From Polytrichum commune (lineage: Eukaryota; Streptophyta; Polytrichopsida; Polytrichales; Polytrichaceae): a stretch of 64,000 nt of DNA. Shown here piece after piece: positions 1,131 through 64,000 of this stretch; position 1 is the stretch's first letter, and the number at the start of each line of letters is the position of its first letter. The translations under genes and the position numbers were made by a program. The stretch is taken from the NCBI GenBank assembly GCA_950295325.1, contig OX485806.1, forward strand, positions 57,841,169 to 57,905,168, given 5' to 3'. A model generated the notes under the pieces. That model saw only the letters and a list, made by a program, of their open reading frames with translations. It was not told where the DNA came from and searched no databases.

Positions 1131-2400
1131 GCTTCTTGAGGTCCTGGATGGCATCATAAGATACGGTGTTATTCCCTTCGATCTCAAAGTTTGTATCAAT
1201 TCATTTGAGATCGTTTTGAAAGAGACTTTCCCTTAGCCCTATCACGGTAGTGAATATTACTGGGGAATATGTTGGATCCCAGTTCTGGTGCACATAAGAC
1301 AGACTAATTAGTTTATATTCATAAGGTTATTTTGGCATCAGTTTTTGACGATTTGAAGATTCCTGTCTCTAAAAAGGACATCAAAGGGCCTAAGGACGAA
1401 ATACTTACGGATTTAGAAGTTTCTATTGACCATGAAGGTTCATTTTAGATATGCCCTGTTCCCTCCACATTTCTTATGGAACTAACAACTGATCATATCT
1501 TATCTTAACCTCTTCAGTGGCTGGCCAAAGTTGAGTTTCCGCATACTGGAGTGTTGTATCAGAGCTTTGAGCTGTGAGTTTGTTGTTGAGGTTTTTTAGT
1601 ACTGGAGTAGGTACCTCATTGTTTGAGAACGCTTGCGATTCTTCTGAGAATGGCAGAAGAGCACAAGATATCATGTCTATTTCTCATGGATAAAGATGAC
1701 AGTTAGGCAGCAACCTCGAATCATTAGATCTTATGAGGTTGAGCAGATGCATTTTTTTTCTCGAAGTAGGAAATCACAAGCCTTGGCGAAGTTTTGAAAA
1801 CTCCAGTAAGTGGAAATTATGTGAGCACTTGCAGGTGTAACCCCTTGTATAACGGAAGTATTAGTGAGTTACACAGGTAGCAAAGGGGTGCATGGCCAAG
1901 TTACTATTGTACTTGTCAAATCACACCCTGCACTTCACCCTTCTAGAGAGGCCGGGTCCTACAAGTGCTTCCAATCTAACCTTAAGTGAATATCAAGGAC
2001 AACCCCTCTTAATTGTAGGTCCTTGGTAAACCAGAGAGGGATTTTGCTAGCATTTTGCGAGTTCAGTAGGAAGTCTGAAAGTCAGTGGTGGCACCTTTCA
2101 CAAGTATTTAGACACCCACTATAATTTAGACACATCATGAAAATGTTGGTCAATGAAAATTTTTATGTCCTGCATGTGTGTTGAATGAACACTTCAAATG
2201 TTTCACCCCTGATGTATTAGCGAACTTAGTTTCCAATGATCTGTAAATGTTTCTATAGACTGTTGTGCAATCAGAATTAAAGTTCACTCAATTTCTGGTG
2301 ATTTTCCAAAAGTGAGAAAACACTGACCCAAACAGTGGTCAAGAAATCCACGCTATATTGGTTAGTTTATGGCAGACAGTGATGCATGTAAGTAATCTGT
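1131..2400. other. Non-coding stretch, nothing identified
   Basis: Only short open frames with no family resemblance are present. I see no repeat array, LTR end or RNA gene. It probably contains the 3' UTR and downstream DNA of the gene ending at 1130. Confidence 0.4.
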
Positions 2401-2564
2401 TCTATTTCTGAGGGGGTGCCCTTTTATTGGGCGGACGCTAAACACCCCCCCACGAACTTCTAGGGATTCTCTCTGACAGCGACAGGGCTGCCCGTAAACA
2501 TACGTCAGCAACGCAAAACTTTCTTGTCCACATAACTTTCACGTCCATAGACATCCGCATCGAA

Positions 2565-2840
2565 GGCAGTCATGCAGTCCCGCAGATCTTGTCCCACAGT
2601 CCCACAGAACATGTCCTACAGATCTTGAACTACATATCCTTGTACCACAGAACATCTCCTACATATCTTGTACCACATAACATGTCCTACAGATCTTGTC
2701 CCACACATCCTGTCCTACAATTCGTGTCCTACGGGTAATGTACTACATATATTGTAGCACATACCAATTACAACATAGCGTATTATTTAAATGTTGTTCT
2801 ACATTTCTTGTAGAACACATACTGTCCTGCAGATCCGATA
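2565..2840. repeat. Degenerate short tandem repeats, subterminal in the MULE
   Basis: A 20-25 bp motif around CCTACAGATCTTGT(C/A)CCACA recurs about ten times with variation. Single related copies occur downstream of the transposase (for example GTCCTACAG near 6710 and GTCCTACAA near 7190). Subterminal repeats of this kind are common in plant DNA transposons; a role as transposase binding sites is inference. Confidence 0.45.
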
Positions 2841-3301
2841 TTTTCGGATCTAGGGTTTGGGGGCGCTCGAAGCCAGACCACACAGTTCTTCGAACCCAAT
2901 GCACACAATTCTCCGCATGTCGTGTGCTATGTGTCACATGTGTTTAGGGGTTGTAATCTGTATGTTTCATTTTCAGTTCTTTGCACTATTTTTTCCAGTT
3001 CTTGTTGCTGGAAGTAGTTCTTGGACGAATGCCATGGTTTACCGACATGTGAGGTAGCTGGTTTAGAGTACTGCTGCGGTCTTCATCGCTGCTTTCACCT
3101 CCATTGGAAGGACATAGATTTTGAGGTTTATTCCATCATCATAGTCGCCTCCATGGAGATTGCCTCCACAAATAATGTCCTGCATATGGCGAACGCACAT
3201 ATTGTCAGCTCTTATCTTGAATCCATTCCAGAGTCAGATGACGAACTCGTTCATTTTTCTCCTGCAACATTTTGTGCAAAGCAGGCTGATCTAATTTTTC
3301 G

Positions 3302-6300
3302 TTGAGAGAGAAAGTTCAAAATCCCCCTCCAGGCGTATTTGCCATGGACAACTTGGTGTGGACCAGCCACGTTACGCACAGCCAGGGTTTACACAAAACA
3401 TCTATGCTAGCAGTCATATTGTGGGATAGACTTCAGGATTTCATTCAAGGCGAGCAACAACATCCTCATTTTCCCTGCAAATTCACAAAGGAAATCGTAC
3501 GTGTTAACCTGCCAAATTCCTTGCGAACACCTCGTGCACTTGTTTTGAGGTTTGACATACTGCATACTCTGAAATTGGACCCAAATTCGTTGTTCTTCAT
3601 GTTCTGCTTGTGATAATGTGACAATAATGCAATTACCTTTAATGTTTATGGGTTTATACAATGAAGGTTTAAGGTGAACACTGCACTTACGGATCAGTAT
3701 GGTGCATCAATTTCATGTCCTTCACCTCCTGGATATTGCTCTTACTGAAGATATTCATGCAGCCAAATATCTTCAATGTGTTGTGCAATGCCCTGAGCAT
3801 GTGTGTTCTGCATTGAACATTACAGGCAATTGAGTTTACATGAACCAGTTCCAACATATACCAGTATACCAATCCACATCTATTATCATGAATGTTATTA
3901 TACCCTAGCCATTCCAGATACAGGTGCAACTTTGGCCCTGAAGATAAGTCTTCTGTAGTGGCACATGATATGCAAGCTCTACTGAAATCAACCAAAAAAA
4001 AAACAAGTAGAAGATTTGCAGAAAAAAAAGCGAGGGAAGAAGGTCGTATTGGAATATGAGTCTTTCCCTATGACCAAATCAACCCGTCCAAAGGCAACGC
4101 GCATTGGCAAAACATTAGCAGGCAACTCCGTGAAGCGAGGGTGCCAACGTTGCTTTGTTGCGAAGAAGCCATACCTGGACCACTCGTTGTGTTTGCTCAT
4201 TTACGAACATGCAGAACACTTGAATGCCGCTGGAGAACACTGTCATGGCACCATGGTCAGTGGCTTTAGATATGCACTTGGTTTAGGGATATAAGAGGAA
4301 ATGAAACTAAATATCGCTCAAATGCATGCCTATGGGTTATCACCTGCCCAAATCATGCAGCAACACACCAAAGAGGTTCGGGAGTTGGCCGCATCCAACG
4401 GGTTGGTCACCTGCGACACATTCTTGTTGCCGTCGGATGTTAGGAACATTTGCCATAAGAGGGCGGAAGAATTGTGGGAGAAACATCCATCTGACCCCGT
4501 CAGCGTCCGTATGTGGGCAAATGAGAATCTAGAAAACTTGTTCTACTACCAAGAGCACTCCCTAATGGACCTCAATTCACAATCACAAGATGACTCACCT
4601 TTCACCATAGGCATTCAAACTGAATGGCAACTAGAGATGATGGAAAAATTCGGCCACAACAGCGCTCTATCCATTAATGCCACATTTGGCACCAGCCAAA
4701 CTCGGGTGCGATTGAAATCTATGTCCTTCATCCTTGAACATGTGTTCTTCACTGTCATTGACTCATGCTAATATGTTCACATGTTGTATCCTGTCAGTCT
4801 GTCTATGAATTATTGTTTCATCATGCTTGGCCCCTATTCTAACTATACTGGTGCAAGTTATCTGCAGTACCCACTCTATACTGTCATGGTGTTCGACGAT
4901 TGGAGAAATGGCATACCTGTTGCTTTCTTCGTCATATCACAGACACGTGAACAAGACCTCCGCCCAGTTTTTTTGGCTCTACATCACAAGGTTCAAGGCA
5001 TTAAATCAGATTGGAATCCATCTTCTATTATCGTTGACAATGCACAGGCAGAAACTAATACATTGGGGTAAGCTATTTGCACATGTTCTTCCCACCTGTT
5101 TAATTGTATATTCACCTCAATATTTGTGTCCTTCATAGGCAGAAAACAATCATACAATGTCATGCAAATAGTATTAGTGGAACACAACAAATTTATAGAG
5201 TGACATACTTGTTCTTCACTTCGTGTCCTGCATCTCACGCCATCTTCTGTTCCGTGTTGCCTGTGCAGCATGGTGTGGCCGGATGCCAAAAATTTTCTCT
5301 GTCTATGGCACGTCAGGAAGGCATGGGCAGAGAATGCAGTGAAGAAAATATCAAATGCTAAAGAACGCACCAATGTTCTTGAAATGCTTGGTGACATAAT
5401 GTATGGACAAAGTTGCAAAGTTGATGATGATCATGTGGACTGGGCCCTGCACCAACTCGACAAGGTATCATTGTCTCGTCCATAGGCAACCTCCTTTATG
5501 TGATACATGAATGAAGTTTGGCGACCAAAGACCACAATGTGGTGTGTTGGAGCCCGACGGATACCATATGCATGACAGAACACAAACGCTGGTATTGAGT
5601 CCTACCATACCAACTTGAAGAGTGTTCTGCATTCTGCCAAGGAGAGGTTTGTGGGTAGGCGTATGGACTGGCTTATCTATCATCTAATATGTGATGTTTT
5701 GACTCACTATTGGTACATTGTCCAGTGCAAAGCATATGGATTCATACGCAACAAGAAACAGGAGGGCATTGTTGCATCGGCAATTATAAGAGCGAACGAC
5801 ATACTTGACACGAACGTCTTGATTTGCATGGACGAAGATGTAGCATATGTTGGGTTTGTAAACAACCGCCCGAAGGTGTGGACCATCAAATGTACAGACT
5901 CCGAATGGGCACAATTCGACTGCCCCGTCGCCATGGAGGGCATGATTTGCAAACATACCGTCAAAGTGTTCAAGATACTCCACCCTGGTGTTGATGACGG
6001 TGTCATAGTTCGTGAGGCGGGTACAAAACATGGAACACAACGCTCCACTCCAATGGCACATGCCTATTCGAGGATGTCGCAACAAACTACTCGACTCCAT
6101 GTTCCGTCTGACGTGGGGAGCCCTTTCGTCGTCGAGCGTGTGGTGCAGGAAAATGTTATTAATATGGACGTTGATGAAGAACACACTCCTCTACCTCATC
6201 TAGAGTCTATCTTTGTTGAATCAGAGCACCCCTCATAGTTCTCATCCCAGTCTACACATGTAAAGTCCTGCACCCCCCTGCCCCTTTCCCAGGAAAGTTC

Positions 6301-6574: not shown

Positions 6575-7750
6575 GTCCCTTGATTCATTTTATTCAAACA
6601 ATTATGTTCCTCTATACACCTGCAAACATGTCCAACGTTCCCTACATCTCAGATACTACAACGATCCACAAGAGTCGTAGTGTCCTTTCTATATTCTGTA
6701 GTTATATTATGTCCTACAGAATCAGTCCATCGTGTTTAGAACTGTTAATCATTCTGTCCTGCTATTATATACTGTATCATTTTATTATTATTGCAAGTAA
6801 TATCATTTTACAAACGTTGTTCTACCACGTAAGCTGATAGCCCAATGTTCTGCATTATCTGAAACCATATTGTACATGATATGTTTGTTTGTGTACTATT
6901 ATGTCCTGTCTATGCAGGATTAAAAACCTATTCCTAGGTTGTGGAGATTGTAGGTTTTCACAAAGTATTATAGCAGCTCATAAACTGACTTTTCGACAGT
7001 GATTTTACAAAATTGTTGTGTCTTTAAAAATATAATATACATGATAAGGGTGATGTACGCTTACAAGGTGTTGCACAGCTCCGCGCCCAACCATTCAACT
7101 ACATCGCCTACATGTTGTTGCTAATATATTGGATACCTTGCACACAAAATTATCGTCAATAGTTTCTTTCATACTATCACAGAGTCCTACAAAGTTCCAT
7201 AGAGCTATAGTGCCATAGTGTTCTGCAAAAATGACCAAACACATCCACTATACAATGATTTACAAAATTTTAGGGTCCTTTAATACATTACTTACTGTGT
7301 GCAGTAAAGCGTCATGTGTCCTTCAGGAATGTCAATGGTCTTCACCACCAATTTTGTCTACACTTTCACTCCTTGCAACCTTTCGGGTCTTCGCAATATC
7401 GTCTATATAAGAACATTTAATATACTATGCATACCAAGACTCACATTTCATAACACATAAAACTATACAGAACATGCTGCAAAGCACAACAAATCCTCCC
7501 ACCCTTCCCCTCCCATCCAAGTGCAACAAATACCCATTCATTCTTACCCATGTGAAATGATAATTCTTTATATAAAAAAAGGTGCGCATGAATGCAGTAC
7601 AAGTGGTATTTTGACCATGTTGTGTTCTATGTGCCATGAACTGGGCGTCCACAAAAACTTTGAGATTGTACACTGAAGAAAATTTTGCCTGTATTTTACA
7701 ACATGTTACACATGTTACAAATACACCCTATTTTTTGTCCTCTAACTGGA
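6575..7750. other. Non-coding AT-rich interval of the MULE
   Basis: It lies between the transposase stop and the solo LTR. No coherent frame is seen. Short CCTACA-type motifs resembling those near the left end are scattered through it. Before the LTR inserted, the last part would have been the 3' continuation of the Ulp1-like gene on the minus strand. Confidence 0.4.
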
Positions 7751-24790: not shown

Positions 24791-25286
24791 CCCAGGGAGT
24801 GCACTATTCAAGTACTGTATTTATACACGTGGGTGCACAAAAGGGGTATTATTTAAAACAAGCATGTACAAAATGTACGTACAAGAGACATATTGCTATT
24901 AAGCAAGAAGTAGATATACATGAGGCTATAGAAAAATATGTGTAAAGTACGCATTTACGCGTTTACGCGTTCAAGTTAGACCTGGACCAAGAATCATGTG
25001 TTTTTTCATCCACTAAGTAACGACTTTATAACTAAAAATCCATGATTTGATATTATACATATAATAGGGCCATATTTTTGCATTTCCAAACATTTGTACA
25101 CATGTTATATACAATTTCTGTATTTGTTTTTTGACCCTTGTGTATGTATGGAAATGTATTTTGAAGCAATGAGTTTTGTAAGTATATTGCTTGATTTTAG
25201 CAAAAATAAAATGTATACAGGGGTATTTTAATAAGGGGCATGCACGCACGTGATGCTTGGTTTTAATGAATAGTGCACACCCTGGG
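24791..25286. mobile_element. 496-bp hAT-like MITE
   Basis: Terminal inverted repeats: CCCAGGGAGTGCACTATTC at the left and, reversed, CCCAGGGTGTGCACTATTC at the right (one mismatch). It is flanked by a perfect 8-bp target duplication, AGCCGCGT, at 24783-24790 and 25287-25294. The interior is AT-rich and has no credible gene. An 8-bp duplication is the hallmark of the hAT superfamily. It sits between the RNase H and integrase parts of element C and breaks that frame. Confidence 0.9.
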
Positions 25287-25294
25287 AGCCGCGT

Positions 25295-25580
25295 GCCAAC
25301 CTGGAACCGCCTCTCGATCACAATCTCCATGTCACCTGGCCCCGAAGGACTTAGATTGCGTGAGAGTCCATCTGCATCCAAGTTGGTAATCCCAGCACAG
25401 TGTACCACCTCAAAGTCATACTCCTGGAGCAATAAAGCCCACATGGCAAGCTTGCCAGTAAACTTATCCGACTCCATGAGCCACCGTAACGACTGATGGT
25501 CAGTCACTAAAGTAAAGTGCTGACCATAAAGATACAGCCGAAAATGGGCAATAGCCCATACCGCCGCCAATGCTTCTCTG
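25295..25580 (-). pseudogene. RNase H remnant of element C
   Basis: The frame reads ALAAVWAIAHFRLYLYGQ, LVTDHQSLRWLM and LLLQEYDFEVVHCAG, then DADGLSRNLS. It is the C-terminal half of a Ty3-type RNase H and the tether to integrase. It begins abruptly at 25580, where the HHCC array of element B ends. Everything 5' of this point in element C is missing. Confidence 0.8.
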
Positions 25581-27953
25581 AATTAAATGCGTCACATCTG
25601 AAGACATGGTTGGCCACCAATATGGGCTTTTGTGTACTTGCGTGAGTACCTATTTTCTCGTAAAGTGTGGTACTTGGTATTCATGTATCTGTTTTATCCA
25701 ATTCAATGCTTCCTCTCTTGTCACGCACATTTTTACTTCCTCATTAGGTAACCGATATTTCAAACCATCATCGGTTATGAAATAAGTATCGACGTCGGGG
25801 CTGAGTAATCCCAACTCTTCATGTGTGCCAATACGGTTCAACTCCTCAAAGCTCTTTAGTCGTTGTGTGATCGGTTGTCTCCAATCTGGCTCCGGTGTTG
25901 GTTTTGGTGAAGATAAGTTTTGACTTTCCTTGGGGTGTATCTCCGGTGTCTCCGTTTCTCTACAGGTTTTGCAGTATCTTTATTGATTGCACACGTCATT
26001 TCCCCATGTTGGCCACCAGTACGTCCCTGTGGCCACGGCCTTCCATGTTTCTATGGCAACCAAGTGGGGTCCGCTTTCCCCATGGGTATCGGCTAGGTAC
26101 CTGGGAACTTGAGCCTCAGGTATACAGATTTGGTTACTCTTTCCTCCTTTGCGTATCCGTTGTAATGTGCCGTTGGTGAACACAAAATACTTATGGCTTT
26201 GCTCTACCGCCCTTTTCACTTCTGGTGGTAAGGTTTGGTCGAAGATTTTCCTGCATATCAGGTATTCCAAGTAGGGACGTCTCCAATCTAGGTTCTTTTT
26301 ACCTAGAAGTGTTTGTGTTTCCTTCTCTTTTGCAAGTTGTGTTTGGTTGCTACATACCGGACATTTCCAATTGCACAAGTTTTTAATGTCGGCTCCGCAC
26401 GTGGGCCACCAGTATGGTCCAAACATGACTAGGTGCCACATTGTCTCTATGCCAAGATGTTTGTCTGATTCAGTAATATGTAGTTCCTTTAAGTATTCGT
26501 CGATTTCTCGCCTGGCAATACATATTTTAAGGTCTCCATCCGAGAATATCTTTTTTTGTTTTCTTTCTTCAATGAAATATTTCTGGTTTTGTCGAGTTAT
26601 CTTTTTGTGTTGATTCTTCGAGATGTGGGGTCCTTTCAAGTACCCGTATGTGAGGTATTCTATAAGTAATCTCCTCCAATCCTTGTTGTCATGGGCTTGT
26701 ACGATGACGGACCCGCAAATTATGTTATGGAGCAGGCCTTCAAATCTTCTTCGACAAGACGGGCAATCGTACATAATGTAGATTTGTATGTCGCACAGCC
26801 CCATCGTGGGCCACCACCGATTCCCTTGCGAGCATCGAAGCCAAGTTTGTTGATCGTCCAAGTGTCTTTGCTGGTGTACGTGCATTTTCCCTATCCAATG
26901 CTTTATTTGGTAACCAGCAATGCAGATTCTAGCCATTCCATTTTTTTCCAGTTTTCGAAGTTTTCCTTTCTCCAAAGTGAAAATTTTGCTCTCTCGTATG
27001 GTTTCCCGCTGCCCTCTTTGAGTCTCCATGTCCATTTTGAATCTTCCATGCGCCAGATATTCGACTAGAGATGTTCTCCAATCGTTAAAGGTCTCTTTAT
27101 ATGGTATAATGTCCGCCCCGTTACCCGGTTCCGAAGAGCTTGCTTCTATGGGTAACTCTTCTCCCTGTTCTTCGCACTCGGTGCATAGTGTGATGAGTAG
27201 TGAGACATCTTCCGCGATAGTTGGCCACCAATACGACCCTTGTACAACTAATTTCTTGGTGGCATTTATTGAAAGATGTTGATTTTCTCGTATATGGAGG
27301 GTCTTGATGTAACTCCTCACATATCTTCCAGGCATATATTTCTTTGTAATGCCGTTATAAAACATGCGATGTAACTCTCCTTCAATGAGTATGAAAAATT
27401 TGCTTCGGTACACTACCAATTTTCTCTCTTCTTTGGGTAGGGAACTCATCCAGGGGGTTCCGTGTGTTAGACAAGTTAGATGTTGGACATATGGTGTTGT
27501 CCAATCCGATTATGTTTTTCCTGTCATGTTTTCTTACGCTTCCAAAGGTTGGACAGGGAATGGATCGTCGTCGTCCTCGGAATCTTGTGGGGTAATGTTC
27601 CCGGTTTCGTTTCCTTGGTCAACAACCTTACATATTGGACATTCTTGACAGTATTCCAGTACGTCTCTTCGTCGGGTGGGCCACCAATATGGTGTACGTA
27701 GTATGTAATGCCATGTTGAAGTTAGATTGTAGTGTATCCCATTTTGCTCATGGGCTTCGCTTATGACTTCTTTAATGATGTCCCCGGCTATACACTCATG
27801 TATCTTGCTGGAGATATTGACTTGCTTGAGCTTTTCATCGTCTAGGACGAATGGCTCATTTAGTTGCCTCATCCTGTTTTGTTCTTGTGGGGTGGCCAGA
27901 GCTGACAACAACCTCCCGTGGGTAAGATACTCAATGAAAGGCGCTCGCCAATC
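25581..27953 (-). pseudogene. Array of six integrase HHCC-type modules in element B
   Basis: Six copies of a 130-150 residue module follow RNase H in one reading frame. Starts (Asp of DW) lie at 27953, 27506, 27083, 26681, 26288 and 25886, spaced 447, 423, 402, 393 and 402 bp. Each has DWxxPxxEYL-type opening, a variable linker, an (I/M)C(I/V)A-type strand in most copies, an H-x4-6-H pair, a (P/S/T)YWWPT-type motif and usually a C-x2-C. Module 1 has H/H and CPIC; module 2 CTEC; module 3 CPSC with NRWWPT; module 4 CPVC; module 5 CKTC after a stop; module 6 is cut off after SPYWWPTMSSD. Element E has one such module (57410-57740) before its DDE core. Four in-frame stops (about 27534, 27507, 25980, 25665) but no frameshift. 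No DDE core follows before truncation at 25581. Confidence 0.85.
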
Positions 27954-28469
27954 TTCAAATGGTTGTACGTGTACCATAAAGAGGCTGGCGTCCGGAAACT
28001 GATCTTGTACTCCCGAGGGGTCTTCTCCGCTCTCTATCCTTGATAGGTGGTCAACCATTACATGGTTTCTACCGGGTTTGTAAACGACTTCGAAGTCGTA
28101 TTCTTGGAGTAAAAACATCCATCTTGCAATGCGCCCGGACACCACTGGTCGATTGACCAAGTATATCAGGGCTTGATGGTCCACGTAGAAAACGAAATGG
28201 TTCGCCAGTAGATAATGATTGAATTTGCCCACTGAGTAGATCATCGCTAGGGCTTCACCCTCCGTTGTACTGTAGTTCTTCTCCGCATTGTTTAAGAGTC
28301 GACTTGCGTAATGAATTGGAGAATCTCTATCTCCATGTATGTTTTGAGCCAAAACGGCTCCAATCGCGATGTTTGACACATCGCAGTGTACGTGGAACTC
28401 CATGGTCCAATTGGAAGTTACCAAAATGGGAGTGGTCGTTAACATTTTCTTCACTTCTTCAAAAGCCTC
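27954..28469 (-). pseudogene. RNase H of element B
   Basis: The frame carries VHCDVSNIAIGAVLAQ (Asp), TTEGEALAMIY (Glu) and FYVDHQALIYL (Asp), then the tether VVYKPGRNHVMVDHLSRI. Length and order are normal for Ty3/gypsy. It runs in the same frame as the RT upstream and the HHCC array downstream; the only break on the RT side is a TAG at 28470. Confidence 0.88.
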
Positions 28470-29637
28470 CTAACACGATTTGGTCCAAAGATATTTTTCT
28501 CCTTTCTTGAGTAATAAGTATAAAGGCCGAGTGATCTCAACGTACATCCATATGAATTTTCGATGGTATGTAGCTTGTCCCAGGAAACTCCGAATTCCTC
28601 GTACAATGGTTGGTGGAGGTAATCCCTTTATGATTTCCACCTTCTTCGGATCCAGCAACAATCCTTCCTTGCATACCACGTGCCCTAAGAGTCTCTCTGA
28701 ATTGACACAGAAGAAACATTTAATGAGACATTTTTCCAAATGTTCAATGTGGTCTTCCTTGGTTCCATACACCGTGAAATCATCTAAAAACACCTTCATG
28801 AATTTGTCGAGGTAATCGGCAAATATCTTCATCATGCCTCTTTGGAAGGTGGCTGGTGCACACATCAATCCAAAGGGCATTACCCTGTACGCGAATGCTC
28901 CGTACTCGGTAATGAAAGAAGTCTTCAGCTGATCTTCTAAGGCGATCATGATTTGGTTGTAGCTGCTGTACCCGTCCATCAACGTGTACATTTCGTGTCC
29001 TGCAACTGTTTCCAAGATCGATTCCGTAAATGGTAATAGAAAAGGGTCCACCTTCGTGACTGCATTCAATTTTCGGTAGTCGACGCACACTCGCAGTCTC
29101 CCATTCTTCTTGGGTACAATCACGATTGGTGACAACCATTCGGTTTTATCCACGGGTTATATGAATCCCGCTTCCAAGTACTTGTTTATTTATTCTTTCA
29201 CCATGGCTGCGTAATTGGGGTTCATCCTATAACGCATTTGTTGTACCGGCTTGGCTTCCGACTGTAGCTCAATCTTATGCTCGCATACATGAGGGGGTAT
29301 GCCCTTCATGTCTTTATATGTGAAAGCAAACACATCCTTGAATTTTAGGAGTAGCTCTTTCACCTTTGCTTCGTAATCTCCCAAGTCTTTCGCGATTTTG
29401 ACTAACTTAGGCTCCTCCGGAGTTCCTAAGTTTAAATTCTTCACCAAGGCTTCATCTTCAACTGTCCATCCTGCTATTTACTTCCCTTTGACGGCTTCTG
29501 AGGCAGGGGTGCGATCTACCGCGATATTCCCTTCTTTTACTTTGTAAAACTGGCTTGGATACAGCGGTTTCTCCTCCATGGCTTCTTGCTCCTTCTTAGT
29601 TGCTTTTCATTTTCGAGTTTTCTCGGGTTTATTTTTT
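28470..29637 (-). pseudogene. Reverse transcriptase of element B, Athila-like
   Basis: In sense: a lead-in (EGNIAVDRTPASEAVKGK, then FKDVFAFTYKDMKGIP), the fingers (WLSPIVIVPKKNGRLRVC, VDYRKLNAVTKVDPF), YTLMDGYSSYNQI, MPFGLMCAPATFQR, the catalytic FLDDFTVYG and the thumb (SFLGQATYHRKFI). An F(L/V/M)DDF catalytic box followed by a VYG-type segment is typical of the Athila/Tat side of plant Ty3 elements. Stops occur at about 29480, 29190, 29157 and 28470, all in one frame. The 5' edge at 29640 runs directly into the 139-bp satellite. Confidence 0.88.
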
Positions 29638-29639
29638 TG

Positions 29640-30700
29640 TGCTTGAACATTTCAATCAAAATATGGCCCTTCAAAGCCTTACTCCTTGACCCTCTCGGAT
29701 CCAAGAGGGTCCTACCCCAGCCCATACACAACAAGGCCGAAACATAAACCATATCAAACATACACTTAAACATACATGCCTCAAATCATTTCAATCAAAA
29801 TCAGGCCATTCATAGCCCTGCTCCTTGACCCTCTCGGATCCGAGAGGGTCCTAACCCATCCCATACATAACTAGGCCGACACAGAAAATATATCAAACAT
29901 ACACTTAAACATACATGCCTTGAACATTTCAATCAAAATCTGGTCCTTCAAAGCCCTACTCCTTGACCCTCTCGGATCCGAGAGGGTCCTACCCCAGCCC
30001 ATACACAACAAGGCCGAAACATAAAACATATCAAACATACACTTAAACATACATGCCTCAAATCATTTCAATCAAAATCACGCCCTTCAGAGCACTACCC
30101 AATGACCCTCTCGGATCCGAGAGTGTCCTACCCCAGCCCATACATAACTAGGCCGACATAAAAATTATATCAAACATACACAGAAACATACATGCCTCAA
30201 ATCATTTCAATCAAAATTTGGCCATTCATAGCCCTATTCCTTGACCCTCTTGGATCCGAGAGGGTCCTACCCCAACCCATACACAACAAAGCCGAAACAT
30301 AAAACATATCAAACATACACTTAAACATACATGCCTTAAATCATTTCAATCAAAATCTGGCCTTTCAAAGCACTACCTGATGATCCTCTCGGATCGGAGA
30401 GGGTCCCACCCTTGGCCATACACAACAAGGCCAAAACCAAAAACATATCAAACATACACTTAAACATTCATGCCTCAAATCATTTCAATCGGAATCTAGC
30501 CCTCCAAAGCTCTTCTCCTTGACCCTCTCCGATCCGAGAGGGTCCTACCCAGCCATACACAACAAGGCCGAAATCGAGAACATATCTAACATACAATTAA
30601 ACATACATGCCTCAAATCATTTCAATCAAAATGTGGCCATTAGGAGGAGACATCAATGACCCTCTCGGATCCGAGAGGGTCCTATTCCTAACATATAAGG
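29640..30700 (-). repeat. 139-bp palindromic satellite, block 1 (inside element B)
   Basis: Eight head-to-tail units. Each has a 24-bp perfect or near-perfect palindrome made of GACCCTCTCGGA and its reverse complement. Palindromes start at 29688, 29827, 29965, 30104, 30243, 30382, 30521 and 30658, so the period is 137-139 bp. The rest of the unit (TTTCAATCAAAATCTGGCC, ACAAGGCCGAAACAT, AAACATACATGCCTC) is also conserved. Relative to blocks 2 and 3 this block is inverted. It abuts the RT frame at 29640. Confidence 0.92.
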
Positions 30701-44374: not shown

Positions 44375-44660
44375 TCAGGATCGTTTTGGGATCTTCATAC
44401 TCCCTGGATTGTATTGAGGTACATAGAGTAGCGTTCGTGCATGCGGTGTAGATATGATTCTCTGTTCCAATGTGTGTTTCCGATCTTCCAAGGCTCTTGT
44501 GATATACCCATTAAGCTGAATTCGGTGGAAAGCCTGTGGAAAAGAGTCAGGAAATTTCCTGATAAGGTCTTGGTGTTGGTGACTGGCTTCATGTAACAAT
44601 GAAGTATCCTCGCCTGCTAAGGTATCCAGTGCAGACATGAATTCCGGGAATTTTGAATCT
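44375..44660 (-). CDS. C-terminal reading frame of element A
   Basis: About 95 residues, mostly helical in look (FMSALDTLAGEDTSLLHEA, IQLNGYITRALEDRKHTLEQ), end at a TGA 18 bases before the polypurine tract region. Upstream (above about 44660) the frame is formed by satellite sequence (LLDPRGS is the palindrome read through), so the real 5' part is missing. I do not recognise the domain. Position suggests the last coding piece of the polyprotein or a separate 3' ORF, as several plant Ty3 lineages have. Confidence 0.5.
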
Positions 44661-46140
44661 GTTTTATGTTTCGGCCTTGTTGTGTATGGGCTAGGGAAGG
44701 ACCCTCTCGGATCCAAGAGGGTCATCGGGTAGTGCTATGAAGGGCCTGATTTTGATTGAAATGATTTATGGCATGTATGTTGAAGTTTATATTTCATATG
44801 TTTTTTGTTTCGGCCTAGTTATGGATGGGCTAGGGAAGGACCCTCTCGGATCCAAGAGGGTCATCGGGTAGTGCTCTGAAGGGCCTGATTTTGATTGAAA
44901 TGATTTATGGCATGTATGTTGAAGTTTATATTTCATATGTTTTCTGTTTCGGCCTAGTTATGGATGGGCTAGGGAAGGACCCTCTCGGATCCAAGAGGGT
45001 CATCGGGTAGTGCTCTGAAGGGCCTGATTTTGATTGAAATGATTTATGGCATGTATCTTGAAGTTTATATTTCATATGTTTTCTGTTTCGGCCTAGTTAT
45101 GGATGGGCTAGGGTAGGACCCTCTCGGATCCGAGAGGGTCAAGGAGTAGGGCTATGAATGGTCAAATTTTGATTGAAATGATTTGAGGCATGTATGTTTA
45201 AGTGTATGTTTGATATGTTTTATGTTTCGGCCTTGTTGTGTATGGGCTGGGGTAGGACCCTCTCGGATCCGAGAGGGTCAAGGAGTAAGGCTTTGAAGAG
45301 CCAGATTTTGATTGAAATGTTCAACGCATGTATGTTTAAGTGTATGTTTGATATATTTTCTATGTCGGCCTAGTTATGTATGGGCTGGGTTAGGACCCTC
45401 TCGGATCCGAGAGGGTCAAGGAGTAAGGCTATGAATGGCCAGATTTTGATTGAAATGATTTGAGGCATGTATGTTTAAGTGTATGTTTGATATGTTTTAT
45501 GTTTCGGCCTTGTTGTGTATGGGCTGGGGTAGGACCCTCTTGGATCCGAGAGGGTCAAGGAGTAAGGCTTTGAAGGGCCATATTTTGATTGAAATGTTCA
45601 AGCACAAAAAAATAAACCCGAGAAAACTCGAAAATGAAAAGCAACTAAGAAGGAGCAAGAAGCCATGGAGGAGAAACCGCTGTATCCAAGCCAGTTTTAC
45701 AAAGTAAAAGAAGGGAATATCGCGGTAGATCGCACCCCTGCCTCAGAAGCCGTCAAAGGGAAGTAAATAGCAGGATGGACAGTTGAAGATGAAGCCTTGG
45801 TCCGAGAGGGTCATCGGGTAGTGCTATGAAGGGCCACATTTGGATTGAAATGATATGAGGCATGTATGTTGAAGTTTATGTTTCATATGTTTTCTGTTTC
45901 GGCCTAGTTATGGATGGGCTAGGGTAGGACCCTCTCGGATTCGAGAGGGTCATGTAGTAGGGCCTTGAAAGGCCAGATTTTGATTGAAATGTTTAATGCA
46001 TGTATGTTTAAGTGTATGTTTCATATGTTTTATGTGTCGGTCTAGATATGTATTGGCTAGGGTAGGACCCTCTTGGATCCGAGAGGGTCAAGGAGTAGGG
46101 CTATGAATGGCCAGATTTTGATTGCAATGTGCAAGGCATG
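44660..46140 (+). repeat. 139-bp palindromic satellite, block 2 (inside element A)
   Basis: Palindromes start at 44700, 44839, 44978, 45117, 45256, 45394, 45533, 45928 and 46066, again at 138-139 bp except where a pol fragment (about 45598-45805) interrupts. The first three units have the imperfect right half CCAAGAGGGTC; later ones are mostly perfect. The orientation is opposite to block 1. The array is broken at about 46140 by the methyltransferase-like gene and resumes at about 50050. Confidence 0.92.
45598..45805 (+). pseudogene. Captured start of element B-type pol inside the satellite
   Basis: This segment matches the reverse complement of 29445-29645. It reads KKINPRKLENEKQLRRSKKP in one frame and, in the pol frame, FYKVKEGNIAVDRTPASEAV before the same TAA. 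The adjoining satellite unit also matches, so the two 78-residue frames spanning the junction (29537-29773 minus, 45471-45707 plus) differ at one residue (Val/Phe). It ends abruptly at GAAGCCTTG and the satellite resumes in mid-palindrome (GTCCGAGAGGGTC). Confidence 0.85.
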
Positions 46141-46149
46141 TATGAAATG

Positions 46150-57340: not shown

Positions 57341-58663
57341 GAAAAGATGGGAGAAAATACGGTGGACGATAGGCTAATGGATGATGATCTCTTTGTGGAC
57401 ACCTCAAGACCGGATTGGTACGCGGGCATCGTGGAATTCTTGACGACCCAAACATTGTCTGAGGAGTGGTCCAAAGAAGAGAGAAGGAAAATGAGGGTTA
57501 ATAGTAGACATTTCATGGTGTTGGGACATAGATTGTTTAGGAGGGGAACCGACGGCCTACTTAGGAGGTGTGTGTCCGCAACGGAGGTGCCCTCCATTTT
57601 ATTGGCATGCCACGATAGCGCATGCGGCGGGCATTTCTCAGGGCAACTTACCGACCAAAAAATACTTAGAGCCGGATACTTTTGGCCTACGTTGTTTAAA
57701 GACTCACACGATTATGTGAAAAAGTGTGATGCTTGCCAAAGGTACGCCAGAAATGATCTTAGGATGGAAATGCCACTACATGTCTCTTTACCATTAGTTT
57801 CTTTTTTTAAATGGGGAATAGATTATGTGGGACCGGTTCATCCTCATTCCTCAAGGGGGATGATTTACATCGTAGTGGCCACGGAATATTTAATAAAGTG
57901 GGCAGAGGCCAAAGCAGTCAAAACGGATACGGCCGCTCACGCGGCTACTTTCATGTATGAGAACATTATCACTAGGTTTGGATGTCCTAAAATCCTAGTT
58001 AGTGATAGAGGTACACATTTTCTGAATAATCTCATTCGCGAGATGACTAGTAGGTTTCAAATAGATCATAGGAAAACTACACCTTACTATCCGCAGACCA
58101 ATGGTCAAACGGAGCGTGTCAACGGGATTTTGGTGAGCATTCTACGCAAGACAGTTATAGACTTGAAGCGAGATTGGGACGTCAAGTTGACAGCGGTACT
58201 ATGGGCATACCGGACAACCTACAAGGTGACTACCCATGCCACACCTTTTTCATTGGTATATGGTTTGGAAGCCACACTTCCGATCGAATATGAGGTAGAA
58301 TCACTTAGGGTGGCCATAGGTTCGAGACTTACCGACAAACAATCCTTGAAGAGTAGGCTCACCGACTTGGAGGAGCTTGACGAACAAAGACGGACGGCCG
58401 CTCAACAAATCGAGGTGATTCAACGTCGAAGAAAAATCATCTTCGATAAAAGGCATAAGAAAATGGCACTTCAACCGGGAATGATGGTAATGATACAAGA
58501 CGCAAGGAAGCTTGAATTCCCTGCAAAATTTGATGCGGTGTGGTTAGGGCCTTACCTTGTGCAAGCAGTTTTTCCTAACAACTCACTCCACTTGGAGACT
58601 TTGAACGGCGGACTCTTTCCTACCCGCACTTCAGGGAGTAGATGTAAGGAATACAAAGCGTGA
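57341..58663 (+). CDS. Integrase of element E (one HHCC module plus DDE core)
   Basis: Open from 57128 to 58663. The linker-HHCC module is DWYAGIVEFL, then a basic linker, LRRCVSATEVPSILLACH, HFSG, GYFWPTLFKD and CDACQ (57413-57745). The DDE core has WGIDYVGPVH (Asp), ILVSDRGTHFLNN (Asp) and TNGQTERVNGIL (Glu). A C-terminal GPY-type segment (FDAVWLGPYLVQAVFPNN) follows, and no chromodomain. All catalytic residues are present. It would insert the cDNA. Its single module aligns with the repeated modules of elements A and B and so defines what was amplified there. Confidence 0.9.
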   Translation, partial: EKMGENTVDDRLMDDDLFVDTSRPDWYAGIVEFLTTQTLSEEWSKEERRKMRVNSRHFMVLGHRLFRRGTDGLLRRCVSATEVPSILLACHDSACGGHFSGQLTDQKILRAGYFWPTLFKDSHDYVKKCDACQRYARNDLRMEMPLHVSLPLVSFFKWGIDYVGPVHPHSSRGMIYIVVATEYLIKWAEAKAVKTDTAAHAATFMYENIITRFGCPKILVSDRGTHFLNNLIREMTSRFQIDHRKTTPYYPQTNGQTERVNGILVSILRKTVIDLKRDWDVKLTAVLWAYRTTYKVTTHATPFSLVYGLEATLPIEYEVESLRVAIGSRLTDKQSLKSRLTDLEELDEQRRTAAQQIEVIQRRRKIIFDKRHKKMALQPGMMVMIQDARKLEFPAKFDAVWLGPYLVQAVFPNNSLHLETLNGGLFPTRTSGSRCKEYKA

Positions 58664-60292: not shown

Positions 60293-61740
60293 CATGTATG
60301 TTTGACTGTATGTTTCATATGTTTTCTGTTCCGGCCTAGTTATATATGGGATTGGGTAGGACCCTCTCAAATCCAAGAGGGTTATCGATTATTGCTTTTA
60401 AGGGCCAGATTTTGATTTACATATCTTGAGGCATGTATGTATAAGTATAAATGTTTTGTGTTTTCTATTTCGGCCTAGTTGTGTATGGGCTAGGGTAGGA
60501 CCCTCTCGGATCCGAGAGGATCGTCGTTTATTACTTTAAAGGGCCAGATGTTTATTGAAATGTTTTAAGGTATGTATATTTAAGTATATGTTTCATATGT
60601 TTTCTGTTTCGGCCTTTTGTGTATGGGCTGGGGTAGGACCCTCTCGGATTCGAGAGGGTCATCGATTAGTGCTTTCAGGGGCCTTATTTTGATTTACATA
60701 TCTTGATGCATGTATGTATAGGTATAAATGTCTTGTGTTTTCTGTTTCGGCCTAGTTGTGTATGGGCTGGGTAGGACCCTCTCGGATCCGAGAGGGTCAT
60801 CGAGTGTGACTATGAAGGGCCAGATTTTGATTCAAATATTTTGAGGCATGTATGTAAATATATATATTTCATATGTTTTCTGTTTCGGCCTAGTTGTGTA
60901 TGGGTTGGGTAGGACCCTCTCGGATCCGAGAGGGTCATCGAGTGGGACTATGAAGGGCCAGGGTTTGATAGAAATGTTTTAAGGCATATATGATTAAGTA
61001 TATATTTCATATGTTTTCTGTTTCGGCCTTTTATGTATGGGTTGGGTAGGACCCTCTCGGATCCGAGAGGGTCATCGAGTGGGACTATGAAGTGCCAGGG
61101 TTTGATAGAAATGTTTTAAGGCATATATGATTAAGTGTATATTTCATATGTTTTCGGTTTCGGCCTAGTTATGTATGGGCTTTGGTCTATGTGTAAGCAC
61201 TAGTTTGGTTGTTAGTGTTGGGTAGGACAACTTGGGGTTCACGGGTTGAACATTTTGTTTTTTTTTAAATTTGTCATGTTAAGGGGTTGGACTAGTTAGG
61301 GACCCTCTCGGTTCCGAGAGGGTCCATCGGTTGGGGGGTTGATCCATATTTTATGCATGTGACATTATAGCCATAATGCTATATATTGCATCCAGGTCAT
61401 TATGAGGTGTACTATGTAGGATCCCCTAATTAAGTTAAGATTTAGCCCAGAAGTTGAACTAGTTGGTTGATAGGCTATACATGTAGGATGTGTGGTTGTG
61501 TGGATAGTTCCAACTACATTGTTGGTAGGATCAACTATTTTGTATCTTGGCTGGAATAAGTCACTCTCACAACCGAGAGGGTCTTAGGTTAGGAATGTAG
61601 GACCAGATTTTCCAATTTCGTTTTCAAAGCTTCCATGTGTGGATAGTTTCAATTACTTGGTTGTTAGGTTAAACTAATTTGTATTTTGGATGGAATTAGA
61701 CCCTCTCGAAACTGGGAGGGTCTTAGGCTATTAATGTAGG
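60293..61740 (+). repeat. 139-bp palindromic satellite, block 3
   Basis: Continues block 2 after element E. Palindromes start at about 60360, 60499, 60637, 60775, 60913 and 61050, then 61301 in diverged context. Two decayed forms (near 61565 and 61690) keep the half ACCCTCTCG/GAGGGTC. The unit body (GGCCAGATTTTGATT, GGCATGTATG, TTTCGGCC) fades after 61180. Orientation is the same as block 2. Confidence 0.9.
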
Positions 61741-62159: not shown

Positions 62160-63060
62160 GGCTAGTTTGCACTCCAATGTTGAATGCTTGTTTGTGTATA
62201 TAGGTTGGACTACTGTGTATGTGGTTGGATTGGACACTCTTCCTTCAAGTATTTAAGACCAGATTTTGGACTTCAATGTGTATATAGGTTGGACTTGTGT
62301 GTATGTGTATGTGGCTGGATTGGACACTCTTCCTTCAAGTATTTAGGACCAGATTTTGGACTTCAATGTTGAATGTTTGTTTGTGTATATAGGTTGGACT
62401 AGTGTGTATGTGTATGTGGCTGGATTGGACACTTTTCCTTCAAGTACTAAGGACCAGATTTTGGACTTCAATGTTGAATGTTTGTTTGTGTATATAGGTT
62501 GGACTAGTGTGTATGTGTATGTGGCTGGATTGGACACTCTTCCTTCAAGTATTTAGGACCAGATTTTGGACTTCATTGTTCAATGTTTGTTTGTGTATAT
62601 AGGTTGGACTAGTGTGTATGTGTATGTGGCTGGATTGGACACTCTTCCTTCAAGTATTTAGGACCAGATTTTGGACTTCATTGTTCAATGTTTGTTTGTG
62701 TATATAGGTTGGACTAGTGTGTATGTGTATGTGGTTGGATTGGACCCTCTTCCTTCAAGTACTTAGGACTAGATTTTGGACTTCAATGTTGAATGTTTGT
62801 TTGTATATATAGGTTGGACTTTTCTGTATGTGTATGTGGCTAGATTGGACCCTCTTCCTTGAAGTATTTAGGACCAGATTTTGGATTTTATTGTTGAATG
62901 CTTGTTTGTGTATATAGGTTGGACTATTGTGTATGTGTATGTGGCTGGATTGGACACTCTTCCTTCAAGTATTTAGGACCAGATTTGTACTTCATTGTTG
63001 ATTACTTATTTGTGTATATAGGTTGGACTAGTGTGTATGTGTATGTGGCTGGATTGGACA
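62160..63060. repeat. 105-bp tandem repeats, about nine units
   Basis: The anchor GGTTGGACT starts at 62203, 62287, 62392, 62497, 62602, 62707, 62812, 62917 and 63021: 105 bp except for one short first unit. Each unit has TGTGTATGTGGCTGGATTGG, CACTCTTCCTTCAAGTA and GACCAGATTTTGGACTTCA. Because 105 is 35 codons, frames stay open on both strands for several units. The last unit merges directly into the HHCC frame of element A. Confidence 0.92.
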
Positions 63061-63920
63061 GTCTCCGTTGATTAGTTGAAAAGGTCTACTTCTTATCGCT
63101 ATTTGTTGTCTTTGAGAAGTTGTTGCCGGTGTTGTCAATCTCCCATGCGATAAGTAGTCAATAAATGGCGTTCCCCAATCCTCTTGTGGATCGGTAGTAA
63201 TTGCTCCGCATTGTATTTTAGTTGTTGTTTTCTTCTTACATTTCGGACATTCTCCATTGATATAATGTTCCGTATCTTGTGCTATGGTAGGCCACCAATA
63301 GGGCCCGTTGAATATTTGTTGAATAGTATCGTTTGGGTTGAGGTGACAACCATTTTGCTCATGCACCCTTTTGATTAGATGTTTGATTTGGTCTTCCGCG
63401 ATACATATTTTACTTTCTCCGTGGTTGATTTCTTTTCGTAATTCTCTTTCTTCCATAAAGTAAGTTTCATATTCTTGTTCAAATAGATCTCGATCTTCGG
63501 TTCTCCCTTGGTTCAAATATTCCATTATGGGTTTTCTCCAATCTACTTTGGTTGAATCATTCCTTTGTTGAATTAGCGTAGTACCATTTCTTTGCTTGTA
63601 ATTAGAATTTTCCTTGATGAAACTTCGAATGTCGCGAGTCATGGTAGGCCACCAATATGGTCCTTGTGCCGTTTTTTTTACCATCTCTTCACATGTTTGA
63701 TGTTTCCCATGGAGTTCCTTTAAAAGCTCTAGTATCCGATTCTCTGAGATGCATTCCTTGGGTATCTCGTTGGCGACAAATCGTCTCATTAGTTTTCCAT
63801 TCATGATGGCGAAGAATTGACTTCTATTCGCAATCCGTTCATTCTCTTCTCCGGTTAAGTCATTGCTCATTACCTTTCCGAATAATAAGTATTCGAGGTA
63901 AGGTTTTCTCCAATCCGATG
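63060..63920 (-). pseudogene. HHCC-type modules of element A
   Basis: Three modules on the minus strand: the first starts at DWRKPYLEYL (63915), the second at 63543 (DWRKPIMEYLNQGR), the third at 63180 (DWGTPFIDYLSHGR). The first has GPYWWPTMTRD but its second His and C-x2-C are lost (HGKHQTCEE, NSNYKQ). The second is intact (HEQNGCH, GPYWWPTIAQD, CPKC). The third ends after about 40 residues, where the 105-bp repeat begins. Spacing is 372 and 363 bp, a little shorter than in element B. The frame is open for 280 residues without a stop. Upstream sequence leaves the window. Confidence 0.82.
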
Positions 63921-64000
63921 TAACATTTGCTTTAATATAGTCACTTCTTTATCTTTTAGATTCATCTCTTTTTGCTTTCCATTGAGTTCTAACATGCATT
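63921..64000 (-). other. Window edge, continuation of element A
   Basis: The frame of the first module continues upstream for about eight codons and then meets a TAA. The remaining bases are too few to assign. Confidence 0.4.

Follow-up and report, generated by a model that had tools for sequence, protein, structure and literature searches.

Serial integrase N-terminal modules in a large Ty3-type retrotransposon family of the moss Polytrichum commune

The N-terminal domains of integrases take part in the assembly of integrase chains on the DNA ends of the element, and the integrases of the foamy virus PFV and of Ty3 each contain one unit made of an extension domain and an HHCC zinc domain. 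In foamy virus integrase, the extension domain precedes the HHCC domain (PMC3738965, in the excerpt available), and the same domain is present in gamma-, epsilon-, and spumaretroviruses (available excerpt of PMC11054761). Here, we describe a family of Ty3-type retrotransposons from the moss Polytrichum commune in which five, eight, or eleven of these units stand in series, in contrast to the single unit of the PFV and Ty3 integrases. One copy lies in the window analyzed here, a stretch of 64,000 nucleotides (contig OX485806.1, positions 57,841,169 to 57,905,168 of the forward strand, assembly GCA_950295325.1). We found no description of tandem integrase zinc domains in the literature on this layout or on moss Ty3 elements, most subscription papers lying outside the coverage of that search. 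To judge from its sequence, the array appears to be a variant layout of Ty3-type element, one that we have not found described.

Arrays of eight and eleven modules

Modules are named here by position, from M1 to M8. Using the M2-M5 frame of the window copy as a query, we obtained at least 102 matches in the genome, among the best candidates that were scored, and 30 loci were cut out. Amplification inside the element, as the first-pass annotation of the window had proposed, is seen in 28 of them: profile scans found eight modules in 20 loci (L010-L020, L024-L028, L030, L036-L038) and eleven in 8 (L021, L022, L029, L031-L035). The remaining two are the window copy, which ends in its sixth module, and L023, interrupted after M5. 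In the eight-module copies, M1-M8 sit directly before the DDE core, and in the eleven-module class, an M1-M2-M3 block lies ahead of M1-M8, so that the two classes clearly differ in having this block once or twice; the first module of the eleven lies partly inside the cut-out in seven loci and outside it in L035, and is whole in L039 (the L029 copy). M1-M8 occupy a single unbroken frame in 7 of the 30 loci (L012, L013, L019, L024-L027) and the eleven-module array in 3 (L022, L029, L031). The C6 copy has eleven modules, and from gag through integrase it is one open frame of 3716 amino acids. Hence, a genome search for copies with three or more modules returns arrays of eight and eleven, some of them unbroken; the array recurs across the genome instead of being confined to one local duplication, and the other copies of the element examined carry more than one module. 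Local duplication or decay and misassembly were both rejected as sources of an artefact, since many copies hold the same array at full length and public contigs contain parts of it.

A profile of 15 modules matched PFV integrase residues 29-109 (E value of 1e-7) and residues 1074-1148 of the Ty3 polyprotein (E value of 0.0062). The first aspartate (D1), the following tryptophan (W2), both histidines, and the WWPT block are invariant in the profile set. From the profile match to PFV and the descriptions of the extension domain, each module is predicted to be an extension-plus-zinc unit of integrase of about 130 residues. The likeness to the PFV and Ty3 (7q5b) integrases extends to position, M8 standing before the DDE core as usual.

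The window copy lies on the minus strand and is a decayed fragment, cut inside M6. A reverse transcriptase (RT) piece (28473..29156; Pfam RVT_1, 1.1e-18; stop at 28470-28472) is followed by RNase H in the same frame (28098..28469), upstream of M1; the open reading frame (ORF) 27537-28469 matches Pfam RT_RNaseH at 1.4e-31 (residues 22-124) and RT_RNaseH_2 at 3.4e-28 (residues 1-93). The modules run from M1, an extension plus HHCC zinc domain with the motif CPIC (27576..27953; module profile, 1.3e-45), through M2 (27123..27506, CTEC; 6.6e-45), M3 (26685..27083, CPSC; 4.1e-48), and M4 (26301..26681, CPVC; 1.1e-49) to the main part of M5 (25986..26288; 3.8e-39), whose CxxC lies beyond an in-frame TAA at 25980-25982. 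M6 (25575..25886; profile scan) is crossed by an in-frame TAG at 25650-25652 and stops short of its CxxC, at position 104 of a profile of about 131. The four modules of the M2-M5 frame score between 4e-39 and 1e-49 with a module profile built partly from the window modules themselves; Pfam Integrase_H2C2, which is independent of that profile, has a hit in M1 (3.9e-10) and covers three stretches of the M2-M5 frame (1.8e-15). The first-pass annotation had read six modules in one frame with no frameshift. M1-M5 and most of M6 are present, but six is the result of truncation, other copies having eight or eleven. Over 25575-29156, there is indeed no frameshift, but five stops interrupt the array frame, compared with 65 and 45 in its two alternatives.

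M7, M8, and the DDE core do not come after M6, which is cut at 25575. Adjoining it is a fragment of another Ty3-type element that begins with RNase H (25016..25582, minus strand; Pfam RT_RNaseH, 1.8e-16) and continues with integrase-like pieces down to about 24054 in the ORF list. Element E, of ordinary layout and used as an internal control, has exactly one module (57413..57754, plus strand; profile scan), in agreement with the first-pass annotation. A short acidic linker between M1 and M2, with several aspartates in a row followed by a proline and the motif LEA, is seen in P0005, P0008, P0010, and the window copy and is a possible hinge or cut region.

Sister elements, inheritance, and selection

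A second, divergent array fragment in the window (63031..63948, minus strand; profile scan), containing N3, N4, and the start of N5, belongs to a five-module sister subfamily and ends at a 105-bp tandem repeat (62277-63064). All four loci of this subfamily (L046-L049) have five modules, N1-N5, before the core, so that the usual count of one HHCC domain per integrase is replaced by five here and by eight or eleven in 28 of the 30 loci described above. N1-N5 are all in one frame solely in L048; a stop interrupts N4 of L046, and both L047 and L049 have a broken N1. N1 is about 50% like M1 and N5 about 72% like M8, and the inner N modules are about 30 to 40% similar to the nearest M module. A 290-residue DDE-core query gave at least 135 scored matches, 66 at 68 to 100% identity and then 69 at 55% or less, module number being examined in a sample of each group. 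The five loci fetched from the second group (L050-L054) have one module each and a DDE region 49 to 55% identical to that of the eight-module copy L012; the best eight loci for the Pfam zinc domain (L001-L008) also have one module each. Element E has its one module before its core, and it and L050-L054 thus have one module each versus the five, eight, or eleven of the array family.

Protein searches, whose reach is limited to relatives having short exact words in common with the query, returned 43 proteins, of which 29 have at least two modules, all 29 from public contigs. Six of the other 14 are fragments that start inside or just before the last module, and the matches in Actinidia rufa (one) and Chara braunii (two) have one module each. 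No relative was found in a scan of IMG/VR with P0007.

Identity among P0001-P0014 and the window copy is 0.55-0.74 within positions M1-M7 and 0.18-0.36 between positions, where labels are the best match to eight reference pieces and the second window array and element E, labeled M1, M5, and M8 as nearest reference, lower the within-position figures of those three. In a maximum-likelihood tree of 72 modules, built on few columns and accompanied by a tool warning on long branches that meet, each M position stays together, and M8 and N5 fall with the single-module elements (fork 87/100, drawn open). Because the modules cluster by position, which the first-pass annotation had named as the mark of an inherited array, the array has been inherited rather than locally duplicated. 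Profile-profile scores pair N1 with M1 (247), N5 with M8 (406), N3 with M2 (130), and N4 with M3 (145), next to 200 for M6-M7 and 171 for M8 against the single-module elements. From the tree and these scores, it follows that the array, at least for M1, M2, M3, and M8, was already in place before the two subfamilies split; the extra modules look old. A strict triplet history, from five to eight to eleven, is not claimed: the step from five to eight is suggested by the tree and the profile scores with moderate support.

The duplication that separates the a and b blocks of L029 is not recent, since they are 0.57-0.70 identical and their synonymous divergence (dS) is at least 1.35 or saturated. 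The ratio of nonsynonymous to synonymous divergence (dN/dS) is 0.10 for the duplicates M1a/M1b of this locus and 0.21 for M3a/M3b; the synonymous sites of M2 are saturated. Blocks also recombine between elements. L037, an eight-module mosaic, has an M2 near the a block (94%, dS of 0.15) and an M3 likewise (85% versus 54%), an M1 about equally distant from both blocks, and M4-M7 near those of L012 (88 to 98%).

Constraint was followed in complete, stop-free, in-frame modules at least 50% identical to their reference piece; broken modules, the window-file fragment, and L039-L042 were left out, and the intact modules of the window copy entered via L009. Among these modules, 92% or more retain each of the four ligands, M6 being the one exception among the positions, in line with the first-pass annotation. 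In the order H, H, C, C, the counts are 27, 25, 27, and 27 of 27 for M1; 26 of 26 throughout for M2; 23, 24, 25, and 25 of 25 for M3; 28, 29, 29, and 27 of 29 for M4; 24, 24, 23, and 24 of 24 for M5; and 26 of 26 and 25 of 25 throughout for M7 and M8. Median dN/dS over within-genome pairs with a dS of 0.1-1.0, which are non-independent, was 0.119 for M1 (136 pairs), 0.178 for M2 (226), 0.192 for M3 (79), 0.181 for M4 (207), 0.222 for M5 (170), 0.261 for M6 (77), 0.178 for M7 (48), and 0.069 for M8 (87).

In one pair of copies, where many dS values exceed 1 and the estimates are imprecise (the ORF at the 3' end is saturated), dN/dS was 0.026 for gag, 0.007 for RT, 0.033 for RNase H, 0.020 for DDE, and 0.186 for the C-terminal part of the integrase. 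In the same pair, the modules M1 to M8 gave 0.074, 0.213, 0.356, 0.120, 0.167, 0.175, 0.184, and 0.030. M1-M8, to which the selection figures apply as distinct from the N modules, are all under purifying selection (median dN/dS of 0.07-0.26), as had been suspected from the retained metal-binding residues of the window copy; the constraint on the array is real, looser than on the enzymes and M8, and about like that on the C-terminal part of the integrase.

The element that carries the array

Its domains place the family among the large Ty3-type (Metaviridae) long terminal repeat (LTR) retrotransposons. The order gag, protease, RT, RNase H, integrase was found in two copies, with gag, RT, RNase H, and rve above the Pfam cutoff and CCHC and protease below it. 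The C5 locus reads as a recent insertion or tandem with the layout LTR-internal-LTR-internal-LTR. Its two units lie at a spacing of 17,220 bp; compared over 4284 bp, a stretch that runs from the LTR start into gag, they match at 100%, as does the outer right LTR over its last 700 bp, the part compared; these identical LTR stretches, together with a 5-bp target duplication (GGGAC) at both outer ends, indicate that the insertion is recent. The LTR measures 2264 bp (TGTAGGG...CTCGACA), is followed by a sequence like a primer-binding site (PBS), TTT-TGGCGACCATGCTGGGGAC, and is preceded by the polypurine tract GGAGGGGAGGATAAAA. The PBS-like TTT-TGGCGACC... presumably resembles the sites of Athila and Tat. 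When one LTR is added to the spacing, the length of a complete unit, both LTRs included, would be about 19.5 kb, about 15 kb of it internal.

Between pol and the 3' LTR, there is an ORF in the sense orientation (L042:384-3215, minus strand; L040:4836-6998, plus strand; L043, reverse strand 1837-4680), of at least 721 amino acids in one copy and 944 and 948 in two, and in the C5 copy it stops just short of the LTR. This 3' ORF is conserved, with 38% identity between two copies; no Pfam family was above the cutoff in the two copies scanned, and by appearance the product would be coiled-coil-like. Another conserved ORF, of 221 amino acids, lies upstream of gag (L039:884-1546, plus strand; L043, reverse strand 7044-7706; part in L041), and the L039 version had no Pfam family. 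Pfam gave no chromodomain at an E value up to 1 in L042:4695-6170 or L040:1340-2812, and no archaeal-type RNase H, a marker of Tat, at the same limit in the searched pieces of two copies, the array and the stretch that separates pol from the 3' ORF lying outside that scan.

Two groups of described elements come closest, compared here by their descriptions. The Phygy clade, non-chromovirus Ty3 elements of Physcomitrium, consists of short elements whose coding sequence fills almost all of the internal part and which prefer NCGN targets (available excerpt of PMC6317226). The array family resembles them in being of Ty3 type, without a detected chromodomain, in a moss host, but it departs from a clade of short elements with no extra ORFs by its internal part of about 15 kb, its extra 3' ORF, and the GGGAC duplication of the one insertion read. 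The OTA superclade (Athila, Tat, Ogre, Retand) comprises large non-chromoviruses, most with extra ORFs and some with very long LTRs (same excerpt), and the family is like it in being a large non-chromovirus with an extra ORF. Retand has an antisense ORF, TRP28 (available excerpt of PMC11963269), whereas the extra ORF of the array family is in the sense orientation, an antisense ORF of the TRP28 type not having been searched for. The excerpts on OTA elements (PMC6317226, PMC11963269) mention no multi-module integrase.

Two further observations concern the surroundings of these elements. The window contains four arrays (29648-30684, 44660-45596, 45801-46144, 60293-61186) of a 139-bp tandem repeat whose core, GACCCTCTCGGATCCGAGAGGGTC, is palindromic, and two of these arrays lie no more than about 2 kb from multi-module fragments. 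On C5, fourteen identically scoring matches to LHCII (chlorophyll a/b-binding) proteins lie within 95 kb (G000:C5:1751760-1846160). Among chains of typical length, the LHCII of this host, a land plant, comes nearest to 7xqp and 8htu, both of Physcomitrium, while the top match of all is a longer chain, 9vfj.

Possible roles of the array

The reading that we favor, with a probability of roughly 55%, is that the N-terminal unit of the integrase multiplied in place, behind RNase H and ahead of the DDE core, and has been inherited as an ordered array of five, eight, or eleven non-identical modules, the last of which would be the integrase unit and the rest a rod of zinc modules. The last module (M8 or N5) would do the ordinary integrase job beside the catalytic core, since it is related to the single-module elements and is the most constrained; M8 is thus probably the working integrase domain. 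M1-M7 (or M1-M10) most likely form a zinc-module scaffold, a rod of diverged, zinc-stabilized modules that would hold protein partners, DNA ends, or both in the particle or in the integration complex. The subunits of retroviral intasomes swap their N-terminal domains with one another, and a fragment of the MLV integrase with the extension and zinc domains is dimeric (available excerpt of PMC11054761), from which we infer that M1-M7 may act in protein-protein scaffolding with some DNA contact. The rod could be a long N-terminal arm of the integrase or, more likely, a protein released by the protease of the element, and the jump in constraint from M7 to M8 suggests that a boundary, perhaps a protease cut, lies there. 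A tentative proposal, to which we give slightly less than an even chance, is that the lineage has built a new structural protein by amplifying this unit serially: M1-M7 (or M1-M10), once cleaved off, would be a position-specialized zinc-module scaffold beside a normal integrase starting at M8.

Several observations weigh against this reading. Stops or frame breaks interrupt the array in 18 of the 28 eight- or eleven-module loci, and the intact-module filter behind the dN/dS values and ligand counts leans towards conservation. Zinc would not be essential in every module, since a subset of M6 has lost ligands (H, H, C, C in 15, 15, 20, and 15 of 24) and N3 is without CxxC in the three copies for which this stretch is shown (window, L047, L048). 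Module net charge goes from -8 to +8, mixed rather than uniformly basic, and this wide difference implies no single binding role. The structure model of M2-M5 was too poor for use (mean predicted local distance difference test [pLDDT] score of 35), and the one sign of a separate M1-M7 protein is the step in constraint from M7 to M8. The mixed charges also weaken another candidate that was set aside, a uniform array of identical fingers coating nucleic acid.

Alternatively, the whole array could stay in the mature integrase, where chained units would replace or extend the domain-swapped N-terminal domains of extra subunits. The array shares one frame with the DDE core, M8 lies directly before that core, and retroviral N-terminal domains are swapped in assemblies that sometimes exceed tetramers (available excerpt of PMC11054761). 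However, constraint is far weaker on M2-M7 than on M8 or the DDE core, and an identity of 0.18-0.36 between positions is unlike the repeated use of one interface, which makes this long integrase rather doubtful in our view. We consider it improbable that the modules are a selfish or neutral spacer, multiplied by slippage or template switching and tolerated, with the constraint reflecting the upkeep of an open, soluble frame. Such a spacer would fit the varying number of modules (five, eight, eleven), the recombination of blocks, and the ligand loss tolerated by M6 and N3, but the dN/dS of 0.12-0.26 in M1-M7 and the degree to which HHCC and WWPT are conserved go beyond what keeping a frame open would require, and the M1a/M1b and M3a/M3b duplicates have diverged at the low ratios given above. 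Least credible, with very little weight, is an arms race in which the extra modules face restriction or targeting factors of the host, as decoys or as contacts, and their turnover is selected: amino acid change is faster in M2-M7 than in M1, M8, RT, and DDE, and blocks are exchanged between classes, yet all dN/dS averages (averages rather than site-level values) are well below 1.

With eight to eleven diverged copies in one polyprotein, under selection and recently inserted, the array family offers a natural case for the roles of the integrase N-terminal domain outside the normal integrase and for how retroelements make new proteins by serial duplication. The single-, five-, eight-, and eleven-module classes, present in one genome, form a graded natural series. 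If M1-M7 (or M1-M10) are in fact a separate scaffold, the element would make a retroelement gene product of a new kind, beyond a longer integrase.
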